A stretch of DNA of 64,000 bases, taken from Adineta ricciae (Eukaryota > Rotifera > Eurotatoria > Adinetida > Adinetidae). Below are positions 43,819 through 62,300 of this stretch, in pieces. The translations under genes were made by a program, and so were the position numbers. The stretch is from positions 434,001 through 498,000 of the forward strand of contig CAJNOJ010000041.1 of NCBI GenBank assembly GCA_905250025.1. The letters are read 5' to 3'. How positions within the stretch are numbered: the stretch's first letter is position 1; each line of letters starts with the position of its first letter. The notes beneath the pieces are model-generated. The model ran no database searches. It was not told the origin of the DNA and worked only from the letters and a program-made list of their open reading frames with translations.

Positions 43819-43826
43819 ATATAAAA
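43819..43826 (+). promoter_or_regulatory. TATA-like box upstream of LRAT-domain gene
   Basis: TATATAAA 72 bp before the predicted acceptor/ATG region. The rest of 43559-43897 is 3' UTR of the CCDC191-like gene and promoter sequence. Confidence 0.45.
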
Positions 43827-43897
43827 CTCGTTTGTTTTCTTTCTGCTGAGAATCAATGGAAAAACAATTGATTGCTACTTGTTTATTTGTTGCAGAT

Positions 43898-45390
43898 ATG
43901 ATCGATCGACATCGACTAGTTCCTCATTTGAAAGAACAAATCACCGGCAAGTTTCGTTTGTTGAATGCCAAATATGCATCGAATATCGATTTGTCATTCT
44001 AGACGTGGTTAGAGTACTGACTCATCATGAGAAACGCTTTCAAAAGACTCGTAAAGAGAAAATTACCGATTTGAATCAACTGAAACCGGGTGATCATGTG
44101 AGTTTCTATAAAACTGACTTCTACTACGCTCACCATGGTATTGTTTGTGAAGCACGAACTAATTATCTTCGTGTAATACATTATTTCAATACATTAGAAC
44201 ATGCTCGTACTGCATTAATGAAAGGTTCGGTCTACATAGCAGCAATTATTGAAAGCGAATGGTCGGTAAATTTGCAGAGCACAAGTGAAGATGTCTATTT
44301 ACATCATTACGATAATATTCCGTGTTTCTCAAATGAAGAAACGTTACAACGAGCGTTTTCTCAGCTTGGCAAACGTGGATATTCGTTGATTGGAAATAAT
44401 TGTGAACATTGGGCACGATGGTGTCGGACAGGTGAACATTACTCAGAACAGATTATCAAATTTCGCAGTTTGGTTAAAGAAAAATCAGCGACATTACTAA
44501 TTGTCGATCCGACCGCTTTGATTGTTAAAGATATTGCAATCGTCGGCGTGCAAACGTTTGGACAGTTTCTTAGTGCGATTGGATCTGGACTGATCTTGAC
44601 CACGGTCGAATCGATTGCAGCATTTATTGATATAAGAAAAAAGAAAAATGAACGGAAAAAAGGAAGTTTGAGCGATGTAGCGTTGAAAAAATATGTTGTG
44701 CGACGAATCACATCAGCATCGACAACAGTACGATTATAAATTCTGATAAAATCTCATCTTTTTTCGACTTTTTAGATAGCCGGAGGAACAGTTGGAACAG
44801 TAGTTGGCACAATATTGATTCCAGTTCCTATACTTGGTGCCACAGTCGGTGGTATTGTTGGAAGTGTCGGTGGCAAACTTCTCGGCGGCGTTTCTGGTAT
44901 TGCTCTATCGAAAATTCTCGAAGTCTACGAGAAAATCAAAGCATCGAACATTAAGAAAATGACAACAGTGCCACAACTAATGAGTAACATATCACCAGAA
45001 AGTCAATTGATACGTGGTCTCATGACATTGGCACTCGATCCAGTAGAAGAAAAGCATATCGAAAAAGTTGTTCAAGAAGCTATGGAAGCGACTGCACCGT
45101 ATACATCATTGTATCCATCGCTCGATGAATTTTTTCATGAAAATGACAATACAACAAAGGACAAATATAAAAAAGTGCAAGAATTATCTACGGAACTGTT
45201 CACCGATGATCAGGGTTCAGTGGAGTATTTTGTTTTGACACCATTACCAGATGAGAATGCTCCCGAAGAATTCGCATCATCAACAGATTTACTTGTGTTA
45301 CGATGGCCGGGCCACGAAATGAAACCTTGGGAAACCGACGGAGAGAAAGTTTTAGATATCGATGAATTAAACAAACGAAAGAGTAATTGA
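43898..45390 (+). CDS. LRAT-domain protein with glycine-zipper membrane region
   Basis: The start ATG 43898 lies 3 nt after a pyrimidine tract ending in GCAG, a candidate trans-splice acceptor. A short intron near 43939-44009 is needed to keep the frame; two solutions work, donor GTTTCG with acceptor GGTTAG, or donor GTTTGT with acceptor TTCTAG. The second exon ends at 44727 and the last is 44776-45390. The LRAT domain shows LKPGDHVSFYK, catalytic His in AHHGIV, and the nucleophile in NNCEHWARWCRTG. This NCEHW motif marks acyl-transferase or phospholipase members of the NlpC/P60-LRAT superfamily. A hydrophobic segment follows, then a glycine zipper (GGTVGTVVGT through GGIVGSVGGKLLGG), suggesting membrane insertion, and an acidic tail. 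The substrate cannot be told from sequence. Confidence 0.8.
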
Positions 45391-53732: not shown

Positions 53733-56700
53733 ATGAATTTACACAATAATAAAGAACTTAGTGATCTTCTCGATCTCAATGCTGTAAGTTGTTTTTTTTT
53801 ATTCAAAAGAAAAAAAAAGACAAAGATTTCCAATTCGTAGGTGAAACATCGAAGTCATTTTTCCAATAACGTTGCCCATCCTTCATCATCTTCTGCATTA
53901 TCCTCATCGGTATAGCATCTCATTTGATTTAAATATGCAATAAATGCAGTTCTTCCTTCGTTTGTACAGATGCTACCATCAACAATTCATTTTCCAAATG
54001 GATCTCAAATTCCTCCCGCTTCGACCAATGCCGAAGGTATTTATCCAGCTAATGCTAACAAAGGTGAGCTTTTCAATCACTTGTCCGTAGTAAGAATGAC
54101 ATTTTCATCGAAATTTTCAGAATTTTGGACACCATCAGCAACTTACGACGAGCCGGTAGTGAAACAACCTGAGAAATCGATGGAATCTTATTTTGCTTTG
54201 TAGATCTACGACGGAAATTACAGCAATCGTGATATTCTCCATCCATTTATTACATCCGAACCATTAAGTATATTTCGAGCAAAGTAGTAACGAACGAGTT
54301 TTTAATATATATTGATTTTGCTTAGATCGTTCGAGTGACTTTCCAGCATCGAATTCGGTAGGGCTATTTTTCATTGTCGAGTCAATGATGATTAATACAT
54401 TTTCTCTTATTTTAGACAACACGAACATCAACAAATGATTTGACATATTCCGGTACAGGACTTTTCTTTGTTTAATTATCATTGATTTTGGTTTATTTTT
54501 AGATAAACTTAATGAAAAAGCTCGCCGATCGACGAATGTAAGTTTTTGTCATGAAACATACTCTTGTCACTTTGTCTGATTATTTAAACGTTCGATGAAA
54601 TTAGTGAGGAATGAATTAGATATTTATTGCTTTCCTTATACATGCGAGCGATCTGGTTAAGATCAAGCGAACACATTCATATATGTCCATCGTTCATTCT
54701 TTTCCATTCTCATTTTAAAAAAATTCACTCGTCCAAATTGAACGCGCACGCGAATCGAGAGGGAAAGAGGAAAAAAAAGAAGAGAACGCGAGTCACACGA
54801 GTGCCGTATTGATCATCGAACACATTCACATTTGTACGTATTCGTCGGGCATCGCTGAAGACAATACTAGCAATGACCTTGCTTCATTATGAACCGTATT
54901 TGGTAAAAAATTTTCTTCTAATTTTTTTCTTTTGTATATAGAAACGTAGACATATCTTTATCTTTATTTGCGACATTGAATGTTGACGTGTGAGNGCATG
55001 TTTTCTCTTTCATGAAGTCATCATCAAAACTTCATTCTATCGAGATACGTATATTTATAGAACGAGATTTATTACTGACAAATGTGTTATTCTTCGATGT
55101 TTCTCTTAGAAAAAAAAGAAAGATCAGAATCGAGAATGAGAGAAAAGAAAGCGCACTCGAATTGATTTAGTTTATATGGAATCTATAATCATCAGAGTAC
55201 TTCGGTGATTTATTGGAAAGTATTTACACATGAGATCAATCAAAACAAGTTAGATGTTAATATGCTAAAGACATTTGTTATCGATCTCTTATACAATCGT
55301 TCTTTTTCTTTATATTAGGTTTATACAGGAGAGGATTACAATCCAGAAAATTCGGCAAGATATCCAACAGGAAAGTCTGTCTATGGAAATGAAAGCAATT
55401 ATTTCGTCGGTGAGTAGCAGCTAGATCGATTGATCAGATGGAGAGGAAGTTATCTTTGATTAGATGGTCAGAATGCTCATCCATGGATAGGACCACCAGG
55501 AACTTATCTTCCTAATGAACATGGTACATTTACTGATGCCAATGGCACATGTTTACCATCAATGGCAAGTTTTCGACCACAAGTACCAACGCCGTACACG
55601 AGTAATGGCAATGAACAAACAGTACAAACTGGAGAAACACTCGGCAAAGCATTGCAATCTGTATGCTATTAGAGAAAACTTATCCACTAGATGGAGAGAC
55701 TTGAAACTCGATTGTTTATTTAGATTTATCCAAATGAACATCCCTATTCAACATCAGCATCAACACCTGTCGCATCACCACCAGTAAATGGTATGTTAAT
55801 CGAGAAGAAGAAAAGAAATCTTCTCACTCAAAAGAGTTACTGAATATTCATAGACCTTTTTTTGTTTATAGGATCTAGTCAACCATGGATCAATGCAGCA
55901 CAGACGTATCATCCACTTGTAAGTATTGATGATTGAAGGTCGATTTCGAATATTTCATTTTCTTCTAACTCTCAGACATCTTTAATCGATCTATCTGACG
56001 ACTCATATTGTTTACTTAATTTAAATGAGGTTTGTCTATAGACACATCAATATGATTTCGGGGATAATGGGTTGTAGACTTCTTTTGATTATTCGTTTTG
56101 TTTGGATTTTCCTCAAGAAAAACAAAACTTTCAATGTTTATTATTTCTAGCCGCCAAGATTAGATGTAGATGATACATTTCGAGCAAACGATTTTCATCA
56201 CTATTATCCTGGCTATCACCATCCACATTCCACTGGACCATATTCAAATTTCCTCAGTCATCCACCAACGACAACAACGACGACGTCGGATATCTCTGCC
56301 CGAAGTCGACATCATGATCCATACTTAAATTGTAAGTTTGTTTTCATCGATGCATGCTTGTGCTCTCATAGATACAATTTCAGATGGCAATCCAGCATCT
56401 TCATCTTCATCGACATCATCGAATGATGCCAACCATACATCGATGAACCCAGATTTAAAGCTCGAATGTCTTGACAAAGTTAAAGTTAACGTTGAGAATA
56501 AACCGCCAGCCACCAATGGTGCGACCCAATTAACCACAGGTAAACTAAACGACTTCAACCTTCGACATGATATATCAGAAGAGAATGCGGCACCGTTGAC
56601 AATTGCTGTTGGTGGTGCGAGTGGAACACATGCAGGACCAATATCGTCTTCGTCAACAAAATTACGAAAGTAAGGACAAATGATGTTTTACGTTCATCGA

Positions 56701-57330: not shown

Positions 57331-58123
57331 ATCGATTTCTTGTGAATATTTCTTTTCTGCACACTATGATTTACTTATCGGTGCCTTCTCCTGAACCCTT
57401 CTCTTGTTTTCTCTCTCTCTCATCTATACATACATGACCAATCTTACAACTTGTGTTTCTTTCGTTTTTTTAGTATTTACCTGTATTTTTCTTTCTGTAA
57501 ACATGATCATGATGTGCAAATAGAAATGAATATTAAGATAGGATACGACAGTATTTTTTTTCTTTTGTTTTCTTTTCACATATACATATACTCTTGCGCA
57601 TGCGCTTCGTTGTGCAATCTTACATCGATGAGCCAGCAATACATTGTATGATTGTTGTTATTTGTTGTTGTTCACGCATTATTTTTACCAATTGGAATTG
57701 ACATGATGTATAAATCTGTTTGATTGAATATGAATTATTCTTGTTTTCGGTTTTTTTCTTCTCTCGTTTGTACAAAATGTTTCTTTCATTACATACGTCT
57801 AGTAGAAAAATCATGTTTCATTTGCTCTCGTTCTCTTTTTTCGTCCATTGATCTGTTAACTGTTCATTTCTTCATTTCTCGTACTGTTTGACACTTCTTT
57901 CTTTCTCTCATTCATCTCGTTTCTTTGGTTATTTCTCAATTGTCGTGCTTGCTTTTGAGTATTTCTTTGCGTATCCTTATTGCCAAATATACACTAACAA
58001 TGAACATACTTTCACAACTTTTCGGATAATCAAGTCAGACTCGAAAGGAAAATGACCGAGAATTGTATGAGTCGTTTATTACGTGCAACAAACGTACGAT
58101 TGCTTAATCTGACGTCTATACAA
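57331..58123. other. E-protein 3' UTR and spacer
   Basis: T/C-rich low-complexity sequence downstream of the E-protein stop, convergent with the LigD-type gene. No gene seen. Confidence 0.45.
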
Positions 58124-59063
58124 CTAGTCATGACTTTGTTTCGTTCGCTTGGACAATGTGGATGTACGTTGTGGACATTTTTCGTTTCCAGTAGCAGTCT
58201 TCGCTGTTTGCAGATCCCGTCGTGATCCATAATCAAGAATACGATCGAGCACGAAATGTTCATCAGCAAATTGATCGTTCTTTTTCATCAACAACCATTG
58301 ATTATGTTGTTGAGTTTTGCCGAATCGCGAACGAACCATGTGAAATTCGCCTTTCAATTTCTTGCCATGAAGTCGAAAGGTTATTTTGCCTTTGTCAATA
58401 CCCGCATTCATATCATCGTTGTCATCCAACGACTCATACGTTCCAATATCCCACGTTCGTACTTCGCCTATCAGGAGAAAACTTTGCATTACGGATTACA
58501 CTGAGATTTAACAAACCTGCGCCATATTCTCCATTTGGAATAGTTCCTTGAAAATTTATATATTCAATTGGATGATCTTCGACCATAATCGCTAGACGTT
58601 TATCTCGAGGATTTAAACTTGGTCCTTTCGGCACTGACCTGTGTAAATCATAGCGTAACAATAATCTTCGATCATTCTATCGACCTACCAGCTGCAAAAG
58701 ACATGTATGAAACTTCTTGCTCATGAAGCACAAATTTCAAATCTACCTTTTCATAACGCCGTTCAATTCAAGTCGAAAGTCAAAATGTAACGTCGAGGCG
58801 TGATGCTCCTGTACAACAAATCGATGTTGATTCATTTCATGCTGATCTTTCATTGGTTTAGGTTCGTTTGTTTTCTTAAAATCCCGTTTCTTTTCATACT
58901 CTGCGAGTAAATCTTTCGATGCCACCGTTTTCTTCTAAACAATAACAGAAACAAAACATTCGATAAGATCACGCGCCAATATTGCGAAACGTACATCGAA
59001 TCTGCAAGTTGATAGTGACAACAATCTATACAAGCACACATTTGTTAATTTCGTTGCTTTCAT
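58124..59063 (-). CDS. DNA ligase D-type 3'-phosphoesterase domain protein (LigD PE)
   Basis: Five minus-strand exons, 58995-59063, 58747-58934, a 3-nt exon 58689-58691, 58517-58638 and 58124-58467, give 241 residues. The core matches the bacterial LigD phosphoesterase domain: [19 protein letters not shown] (metal-binding HH/H/D and Arg), [51 protein letters not shown] and [10 protein letters not shown], with WLLMKK near the end. In bacteria this domain removes 3' phosphates or ribonucleotides at DNA ends during NHEJ. Here it stands alone, without ligase or polymerase domains. The N-terminus ([20 protein letters not shown]) is basic and looks like a mitochondrial presequence. A candidate trans-splice acceptor lies about 13 nt upstream of the ATG. 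The C-terminal 35 residues are basic and may be a nuclear signal. Bacterial origin is inferred. Confidence 0.85.
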
Positions 59064-59075
59064 TCGAACTTTAAT

Positions 59076-59077
59076 CT
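59076..59077 (-). promoter_or_regulatory. Candidate trans-splice acceptor before the LigD-type gene
   Basis: On the minus strand, TTTTCTTTTATTGATCAG ends 13 nt before the ATG. An AATAAA for the upstream RAPGEF1 gene lies about 25 nt before it (plus-strand 59102-59107), the spacing expected of an operon junction. Confidence 0.4.
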
Positions 59078-59324
59078 GATCAATAAAAGAAAACACCTCA
59101 TTTTATTATTCGTTTCTAAGTTCAATAAAATATGTAAAATCCAACAAAAAAGAAAACAACAATGATACACAGAATAGTCTGTTTTAAAAGATTGAAATTA
59201 GAAGGGACCGAAAAACTCTGATAGACACAAATAGGTCAACGAAGATGTTTCATGTTTAGTTTTGTTGTCACTGTAACGAAGAGAAAATATCTGACAGATA
59301 CACAAAACCATCTCAACTCGATTC

Positions 59325-62300
59325 CTAAGCATATGGATTAGATTTTTGTCGGGGCTTGATTTTCTCCGATTGGATCCATTGTGCATCTTCATTCATATAA
59401 TCATCGAAGTTATTAAAAAAATACAATATACGATCATTACGAATGAATTTATGTTCCCTAAAAACAGATAACAACGAGATTTCCATCGGCAGAACCTTTT
59501 CTGAACAATTACCATTTTCGACAGTAACGAAGTTTATGTAAAATTGTAAATTGTTGCCACCGTTTCCAAAAATTAACTGTTCGACCATCCGGTAAATAAT
59601 CCGTATTACCAATATGGACAAAGGTTAAATCCGACAGGATCAATCCACTAGAAAGCTTCCTATTGAAAAGTGTAACATCTGGTCGATTGACTTACATATA
59701 AGGTATACACGGTTGTCCAACCGATGCATTCAATGCTTCCCGGTAGTTTTTAAATGATCCAGTGCTGTCAATAAGTCCAGCGTGTTCCGATATTGACTAC
59801 ATGAACGACTGTGAAAATGAAATATTGAGAGAAGAAGTTTCTTACGTCAATAATACTCTTCGACCAATGCAATCGTTTTAATGGGCCACAATCCAAAGCG
59901 GAGAGTATGGCCAGATATGAGTTGAAGTTATTTAATCGCCGTAGATGCTAAACAGATGACACGTCTTACGATTACAACGTATTCTTCAAGGCAATGTCTA
60001 ATACTCTCATAAGAGAAACTCGATTTATTTATGTAGTAACGCAAGAGAGTAGTCGAGCCATAACAAATCCAGTCTACTGTCTGGCTATGCATTAGCTAGG
60101 TTAAGTCAATCTTCCGCTTCATTGAAAGTATCGTATTCTTACTTTTAATATTTTCAAGAACTTTTCAAAATGAACTTCACGTTGTTTCTGCGAGTTTTGT
60201 TCGAGGATTCGTGATCGGACCCTGCAAGAAATGAATAAAAGATCTGTTGATTCCAATTATTCGAACGTCTCACCAGTAGGAGATATTGTTGAAATGTTCG
60301 GTGAAAGCGGCTAAATTCGGTGAATATTCTTCTCCTTTTTCAATTGACATGTATAAGATTTCGGATAGTTGGATTTTGAGAAATAATTCTGAATCCAGTA
60401 GAGTTAATTGTTCACTAATATCACTGGCGTGAAAATCAAGTAACGTCGCTCGTTTGGAAGAAATTGAGTTTTGTATAACGAGAATATCTTGCGGAGTTTG
60501 TTCAGAGGATGGCGGGAATCTTGTAAAACGTTCGAGAGATTTCCGTCGTAGAAGTTTCCCTAGCTGAAGTTCACCTTGACGAATTAAATTCGTAACAAAA
60601 TTCGAAAGAGATTCCATTAAATCTTCCGTTAGTTCATTACTAAATACATGAAATTGTGAGTGAATTCTCTGAGAAATAAATATAATGTATGTTACTCGAT
60701 TTCATCGATGACTCGAATGAGAAGTGAAAACGCATATCGCGATATCTTTTTCTTCGTTTCAAATTGCGAAAAGAACGTATAACGTTGAATTAATTTTTCA
60801 ACTAAATCACTCGGAGAGACAAATGTACGATATGTAGTTAGAAACGCTTCTTGATAAACGAAATCTACAGAATACATCATTAGCATCACACAATTGACGT
60901 TTTTAGTAAGTAAAATCGAACCTTTTTTATCGGGAGATGTTGCTCGGATGATCAACGCATCGACAGAACCACCGCGTAATGACGGATTTTCGTTCTAGGG
61001 TGAAATATGCCTACGGAGTTACGCAATCGAAGCCTGTCATACTTACCAGATTAAAGACAAGTAAATGGGATATATTTTCCAGGAAAAGGTCACTCTGATA
61101 GTCAATTTTCAATGGATTTTTACATGTGAACGATTCGTCCATGTCTTTGAGCTGAAATGAATGGTAATTTGTTGATGCGAACATCGGATCCATCTACGAC
61201 TTACGGAGTCATTGGATTTGTCAGTGTTTTTTAGTTTTATTCTCAGCGATTCATCCAAATTGGGAAAGATTTGCATCTGTTGGAAGTGTTCTTGCATTTG
61301 TTCGAATAAATCTTCAAATCGGCGTTGAGGCGTTGGCACAGAACACGTATCACGAAGGAAATTTTCCGCGACATGTTGATCATACCGATCAAACAGGGAC
61401 ATGTACGCTCGAGCTAAAAAAACGGAACAGGAAAAAGAAAATGGTGGAGAACTGTTTCCGAATTTTAATCCAATCAAGTAGAACTCAACTAGTTGAAAGG
61501 AAAAGCAATTTTCTACGTCCGTTTCCGGTGTTCGAGAGGAAATAATAACCTGTCTTTCGTTTGGGCGGTAACGGTGGTGGTTCATTACTACTGTCTTCGG
61601 TTTTGACAAGATTTAGCTGTCGATTTTGAGATGTAACGAATGATTTCTGCTGTTCGTCTTCGTTGTTGATCTTTTCTCGATTGATGAATGTAAATTTTTG
61701 TGTTTGGAAATTTCCATTGGGTGACTGAATCGAACAATCGGTTTCGTTATAAAGCTGACACGATTGTTTTTGATCAATGATCTCATGGCCATTTTTAACG
61801 GTCGTTTTCGTTACTGTGCTTTTGGTGATTTTCGAAACTTGAGTTTCGTATAATGTGTCAGCATTTTGAGGATGTTGATGACATGGTGCTGTCATTGTTA
61901 TCGAACAATTCTGATCGAATAATTGTTCAGCTGAAGGGGAACGAGCCGTTGTTTTCGTACGTATCGCATCATCTAATTCACGTGTATATTTCTCGACGAT
62001 CTGATTGATATCATCGACAATAAGTTGTATACATTGATCGTTATCTTTATCTGGGCGGATCTTTCTCGGAACGGAATTCGTACTACCGTTAGGTCGTATT
62101 CGATTGGAGACAATGGTCGTGGAAGAATTGATCGAGGATTTATCGCGTTTTGGAGGAAGGACAGGTGCAGATTCATCATTATAACTAAACATACGAAGGA
62201 TTCGATGAAACAATCAATAGAGAAAACGAAATTTACCTGTTCGATGAGTGAAAACTTTGTATCGAACCAGAACGTGTCTCTACGCTTTGAATTGAGGATG

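Follow-up and report, generated by a model that had tools for sequence, protein, structure and literature searches.

As described in the available part of PMC8656161, the 3'-phosphoesterase (PE) domain of LigD first takes off the nucleoside at the 3' terminus and next the 3'-phosphate, and the domain is also a 3'-ribonuclease. Here we describe a PE gene in a 64,000-nucleotide stretch of DNA (the window) from the bdelloid rotifer Adineta ricciae, which had previously been annotated by a model from its letters (the sequence-only reading). The PE domain of P. aeruginosa LigD (PDB 3n9b and 2lj6) belongs to the same family, carries the complete catalytic set and is ~50% identical to the rotifer protein; unlike P. 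aeruginosa LigD, however, the rotifer PE lacks a ligase or polymerase domain, has a leader, a tail and introns, and is an animal gene. Stand-alone PEs that we found in Bacteroidota are likewise single-domain proteins, with 59-61% identity to the rotifer protein, an IL.YGSR extension and a Lys-rich tail, but they adjoin a LigD-type ligase in three of four cases and have His at the position of Gln40. Solved structures are also available for stand-alone archaeal enzymes that are likewise PEs (3p43, which we take to be that of M. barkeri; 5dmp; and 3p4h, presumably that of Korarchaeum), but 3p43 and 5dmp lay far from the rotifer gene in our trees, from which 3p4h was left out. The archaeal PEs treated in the available part of PMC8656161 come from M. 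barkeri, Methanocella and Korarchaeum.

In bdelloids, Ligase E is an acquired DNA repair enzyme whose bacterial origin has been argued and which is strongly induced by radiation (PMC10665377, in the portion accessible to us). The rotifer PE would resemble it as an acquired repair enzyme, but Ligase E is a ligase, whereas the PE would be an end healer. In addition, a 2024 study of A. vaga reported over-expression of 'Ligase D in NHEJ' 8 h after Fe-ion irradiation, together with induction of NHEJ and BER genes after radiation (PMC10809525, as far as its accessible text goes). That text names 'Ligase D' once in the main body, with no sequence, domain or origin given there; the other match to 'ligase d' belongs to the name of an RNA ligase, and the pathway figures rest on KEGG assignments. 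Because the naming is KEGG-based, the A. vaga 'Ligase D' may be the same gene under the name of the parent enzyme, and it is possibly the orthologue of the gene described here. Save for that mention, our literature search found, in the portions of the papers it returned, no paper that deals with a rotifer PE or LigD protein.

Gene structure, active site and a predicted microexon

The PE gene lies on the minus strand (59063..58124), and its five coding exons of 69, 188, 3, 122 and 344 nt encode a 241-residue protein. The limits 58124..59063 proposed in the sequence-only reading agree with the coding sequence including its stop codon, and the proposed number of five exons was right, one of them being only 3 nt long. 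The exons and introns are as follows.

58995..59063, minus strand: exon 1, with the start codon and a 23-residue leader that has no counterpart in the PE domain (from the translation)
58935..58994, minus strand: intron 1, 60 nt, GT-AG; of equal length in the second copy, with GT-AG ends and 5 differences
58747..58934, minus strand: exon 2, N-terminal PE segment with the equivalents of Arg14, Asp15, Glu21, Gln40, His42, His48, Asp50 and Arg52
58692..58746, minus strand: intron 2, 55 nt, GT-AG; 6 differences in the second copy
58689..58691, minus strand: exon 3, predicted 3-nt microexon CTG, which completes the codons of Ser86 and Trp87
58639..58688, minus strand: intron 3, 50 nt, GT-AG; 5 differences in the second copy
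58517..58638, minus strand: exon 4, SVPKGPS...VEDHP..., with the equivalents of Glu82, His84 and Tyr88
58468..58516, minus strand: intron 4, 49 nt, GT-AG; 7 differences in the second copy
58124..58467, minus strand: exon 5, end of the PE domain, extension with an LxYGSR-type motif, basic tail and stop

A poly(A) signal, AATAAA, is found at 58080, 44 nt beyond the stop. The composition of the gene is host-like: the GC content of its coding sequence is 0.397, compared to 0.350-0.391 in four host reading frames and 0.362 in the window.

The protein consists of the PE domain only, with neither a ligase nor a polymerase domain. It matched Pfam LigD_N (PF13298) over profile positions 1-107 of 107 (E 2.3e-43; 147 bits against a cut-off of 31.1) and NCBIfam TIGR02777 over positions 1-156 of 156 (221 bits against a cut-off of 144). 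Five distinct sequences among solved structures also matched, the best being the P. aeruginosa LigD PE 2lj6 (E 4.5e-50). These matches lie far above what chance would give and, together with the spliced model on the DNA, bear out the earlier description of a stand-alone LigD PE of bacterial type encoded by a gene with introns. Using the numbering of the P. aeruginosa LigD chain, as in section 8 of PMC8656161, the available part of that article gives His42, His48 and Asp50 as metal ligands, Arg52, His84 and Tyr88 as the phosphate residues, Gln40 and Ser61 as supporting residues, and Arg14, residue 15, Glu21 and Glu82 as needed for phosphatase activity. Residue 15 is Arg as printed there and Asp in the P. 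aeruginosa chain. All of the listed catalytic and phosphatase residues are identical to those of P. aeruginosa in both rotifer copies of the gene (Ser61 given the 3-nt exon). Judged by its profile matches and these residues, the rotifer protein is a member of the LigD 3'-phosphoesterase family with a complete catalytic set.

The predicted microexon supplies the third base of a Ser codon followed by bases one and two of a Trp codon, and the resulting Ser86 and Trp87 correspond to Ser61 and Trp62 of P. aeruginosa LigD. Ser and Trp were found at these positions in 135 of 135 aligned rows, two of which are the rotifer copies read with the microexon. The TIGR02777 score was 221.2 bits with the microexon and 206.2 bits without it, and the second copy keeps the same CTG despite 6 differences in 55 nt and 5 in 50 nt of the flanking introns. 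When the 108-nt stretch was shuffled, 0.57% of the versions yielded a 3-nt exon restoring Ser-Trp, a motif fixed after the data had been seen, between introns of 40 nt or more, and 13% yielded any 3-nt exon between such introns. A model with a single 108-nt intron in place of the microexon leaves the frame open, but it costs 15 bits and the two residues present in 135 of 135 rows, and we disfavour it. The microexon is thus predicted to be spliced into the PE mRNA. The LigD PE motifs quoted in the sequence-only reading are present in the product, though SWSVPKGPS depends on inclusion of the 3-nt exon. Since exons of 1 nt have been documented in plants (PMC8831610, in its accessible part), a size of 3 nt is extreme but not unheard of.

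On paper, skipping of the microexon keeps the frame and turns the active-site Ser-Trp into a single Arg. The microexon might in this way serve as an activity switch, the skipped form being full-length, presumably dead and possibly DNA-binding, so that splicing would toggle end healing; we regard this idea as a long shot. The microexon is near the lower size limit of exons and may be overlooked by automatic annotation; such an omission could help explain why the PE gene has received little attention.

Place of the gene in the host genome

We searched the genome (130.46 Mb in 1033 contigs) and found two PE genes, which are homologous copies, each recovered as two exon matches, and no others. The second copy, at 247280-248216 of contig C128, is intact and encodes 240 residues, and C128 is collinear with the window at 95.2% identity over 7.9 kb. 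As a separate observation, C128 carries ~1.6 kb (L005 7870-9512), at the point matching window position 54995, that are absent from the window copy. Comparison of the two copies over residues 1-232 gave a dS of 0.191, a dN of 0.0325 and a dN/dS of 0.17; in the PE domain (65-173) the values were 0.166, 0.0116 and 0.07, and for residues 24-64 dN/dS was 0.265. The leader shows 3 synonymous and 0 nonsynonymous changes between the copies, its protein sequence being identical. Fisher tests on rounded counts gave P-values of 1e-7 (residues 1-232) and 1.2e-5 (PE domain). The PE gene is kept under purifying selection.

Furthermore, a third and more distant copy of the region was found on contig C131, whose aligned blocks share 67-88% identity with the window. 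On C131 the HLH gene and the RasGEF gene adjoin each other, and the PE gene is missing between them. Comparison with this empty site delimits the following segment.

57984..59339, no strand assigned: PE-bearing segment, 1356 nt compared to 141 nt on C131, also present on C128; located from the gap between blastn blocks and from junction alignments, with approximate outer limits

The PE protein gave no tblastn match on C131 even at E 1. The PE segment either entered one of two older duplicates, of which the one lacking it is represented by the single contig found, or was lost from the other. A homologous pair with a more distant duplicate fits the degenerate tetraploidy of bdelloids.

These data bear directly on whether the gene is an assembly contaminant or a decaying pseudogene, a suspicion that a bacterial-type domain within an animal assembly naturally raises. 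The gene has introns and is present twice, on a pair of collinear contigs that carry animal genes; both frames are open, with a dN/dS of 0.17 and host-like GC. The contamination check named in the sequence-only reading was passed, with a second collinear copy, animal neighbours and an empty site in the older duplicate. Short of an assembly error shared by both contigs, contamination and pseudogene decay are refuted, and we assign them a negligible probability.

The neighbours of the PE gene encode an HLH domain on one side and RasGEF_N and RasGEF domains on the other. These domains are consistent with the names E-protein and RAPGEF1, which are those of the sequence-only reading. The PE start lies 261 nt downstream of the stop of the RasGEF gene on the same strand (gap 59064-59324), an AATAAA is found at 59107 shortly ahead of the PE start, and the ATG follows a pyrimidine-rich tract that ends in CAG. 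It is possible that the PE gene is the downstream gene of a trans-spliced operon, with a shared promoter or a trans-spliced transcript. Elsewhere in the window, an open frame at 43825-44736 on the plus strand encodes an LRAT domain (E 2.2e-17).

Bacterial relatives and origin

A scan of the genome collection gave at least 592 loci, of which the best 80 were kept. Searches by phylum, run at E thresholds that differ from one phylum to another, gave matches in 178 of 346 genomes of Actinomycetota, the phylum of Prauserella (E 1e-3; best 187.9 bits), in 2 of 297 of Acidobacteriota, the phylum of a Pyrinomonadaceae bin (1e-55; best 196 bits), in 20 of 240 of the phylum of a Bdellovibrionales bin (1e-52; best 211 bits), and in 5 of 395 of Bacteroidota, the phylum of Mucilaginibacter (1e-56; best 220.6 bits). 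Within one small order of Bacteroidota, 5 of 13 genomes matched at 1e-54; four of these matches scored 220-226 bits with 59-61% identity, and the class of that order gave no further matches (5/294). These four loci (L154, L158, L159 and L160) encode stand-alone PEs in open frames of 239-274 residues. In the alignment they have in common with the rotifer protein the extension D.[YF]AD....[LM]..IL.YGSR. Of 141 distinct PE reading frames, 4 had the pattern [IVL]L.YG[ST]R, namely the same four, and 121 of the 141 extend 30 residues or more beyond the core. L161, the fifth match in this order, is without the tail motif and lies elsewhere in the tree. An NHEJ-type ligase (TIGR02779 above its cut-off) is found beside the PE at L154, L158 and L160; at L159 the one neighbour tested is a relative of enoyl-CoA hydratase. 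LigD looks split in this order, with a stand-alone PE beside a stand-alone NHEJ ligase at three of the four loci.

Our trees comprised prokaryotic PEs and the rotifer pair, with no eukaryotic PE; L066 and the viral loci L086-L095 were left out throughout, and the duplicates L106-L110 were left out of the trees of 135 and 69 rows and of the tail-motif count. In a quick tree of 135 rows, built with the tail excluded, the rotifer pair stood beside the four Bacteroidota PEs (SH-aLRT 86). In a more careful tree of 69 rows hand-picked from the 135, again with the tail excluded, the pair was sister to the four (bootstrap 99, SH-aLRT 80), on a long stem branch of 0.65. At the positions of Gln40 and Arg76 the four Bacteroidota PEs have His and His and the rotifer protein has Gln and Arg, a difference which argues that the rotifer gene is the sister of the four and not nested inside them. 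Forced alternatives were compared by AU test, for clades named after the trees had been seen: none of the three bacterial placements was rejected at 5% (two Acidobacteriota rows, p-AU 0.142; Prauserella, 0.072; six Bdellovibrionota rows, 0.054). A first tree of 84 rows, without the Bacteroidota order, had placed the rotifer gene with Prauserella and the Pyrinomonadaceae row (SH-aLRT 86); this placement was not upheld after the order was added, although the AU test still does not reject it. From the trees, with which the tail motif agrees, the nearest sampled relatives appear to be the stand-alone PEs at these four Bacteroidota loci.

We also considered mobile elements. The phage collection gave no match, and 10 of 44 pattern stretches on viral contigs encode a PE relative, the best at 48-49% identity over the matched part; with viral relatives no closer than bacteria and none in the phage collection, we rejected a virus as the carrier. 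Two of the ten viral contigs with PE-like domains (L086-L095) carry them in frames of more than 1600 residues, which continue beyond the end of the sequence examined (L090 and L093). Among plasmids, 499 records matched, the best place of each below 60% identity; of the 30 plasmid matches listed, 19 are annotated as ligD and 1 as an ATP-dependent DNA ligase. In addition, we noted a stand-alone PE in a Woesearchaeota bin (L037), with an open frame of 189 residues and 55% identity to the rotifer protein over the match.

PE domains have been reported in eukaryotic proteomes (the available part of PMC8656161, citing Nair 2010), and our literature search on eukaryotic PEs gave nothing specific. That report leaves room for a route by which a fungus or protist carrying a PE, and not a bacterium directly, passed the gene to bdelloids; the composition of our trees, which hold no eukaryotic PE, and the long rotifer stem branch of 0.65 would suit such an intermediate. 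The bacterial sisters, however, share the same C-terminal motif, and an extra donor would be needed, so we consider this route rather unlikely. The same report, along with introns and a host-like composition that fit long residence, could also be read as vertical descent of an old eukaryotic or metazoan gene lost in most animals. Against this reading, the C131 duplicate is without the gene and without a tblastn trace of it (though loss from one duplicate is possible), the gene has, of the groups sampled, a specific affinity to one bacterial group, and the genome search shows two homologous copies only; we hold vertical descent to be highly improbable. The gene, sister to bacterial PEs among the prokaryotes sampled, was probably acquired horizontally, as the sequence-only reading had proposed for a bacterial-type PE now integrated in an animal genome.

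Proposed function and significance

We consider it likely that the PE reached the host by horizontal transfer from a bacterium, was turned into a spliced gene of the host and has been retained by selection; its most likely role is that of a metal-dependent 3'-end healer. Among the ends produced by radiation and oxidation are 3'-phosphates. At broken DNA, the rotifer PE would remove the 3'-terminal (ribo)nucleoside and then the remaining 3'-phosphate, leaving the 3'-OH that a ligase needs, and the healed end would be handed to a host ligase (Lig4, Lig3 or Ligase E). Such a role might be called upon after desiccation or radiation. We infer the enzymatic activity, the DNA substrate, the ligase hand-off and the role in desiccation or radiation from the family and its conserved residues.

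A search of the rotifer genome for the LigD polymerase gave 0 matches (the control in B. subtilis was positive), and the LigD-type ligase of L154 had no match there in a search that is weak, having been run without a positive control. With no LigD polymerase or ligase match, the PE would have to work with host ligases. Three matches to PF14743, the OB-domain of the Ligase E type, were found in the same genome (on C28, C78 and C392), in keeping with the Ligase E already described from bdelloids. PNKP exists in A. vaga and becomes over-represented upon irradiation (PMC10665377, in its accessible portion), and its presence counts against a demonstrated need for a second 3'-phosphatase.

The sequence-only reading had also suggested a mitochondrial-like leader and taken the Lys/Arg C-terminus as a possible nuclear sign; neither suggestion was supported. 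The leader has 4 Lys/Arg and 1 acidic residue among its 23, and in a simple test its hydrophobic moment was no higher than that of shuffles (p 0.52), giving no amphipathic signal. The C-terminus is no particular indication of nuclear targeting, Lys-rich tails being present in the nearest bacterial PEs too. It is conceivable that the PE fold has been kept for another job, either RNA 3'-end repair or mitochondrial nucleic-acid processing: the exon 1 leader is without a clear bacterial counterpart, and the PE domain is also a 3'-ribonuclease (PMC8656161, part available). However, the leader lacks that amphipathic signal and the full residue set is kept, including the residues needed for 3'-phosphatase activity, which makes a changed job very unlikely in our view.

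The proposed 3'-end healing is directly testable, as it concerns one small protein for which the assay and the residues are known. Bdelloids survive massive chromosome breakage, and Ligase E is one horizontally acquired repair enzyme already tied to this survival. A 3'-end healer of bacterial origin, maintained by purifying selection, would imply that bdelloids imported the step preceding ligation as well, and did so apart from the ligase that adjoins the PE in three of the four closest bacterial relatives. An acquired PE may help explain how shattered chromosomes are survived in such animals.
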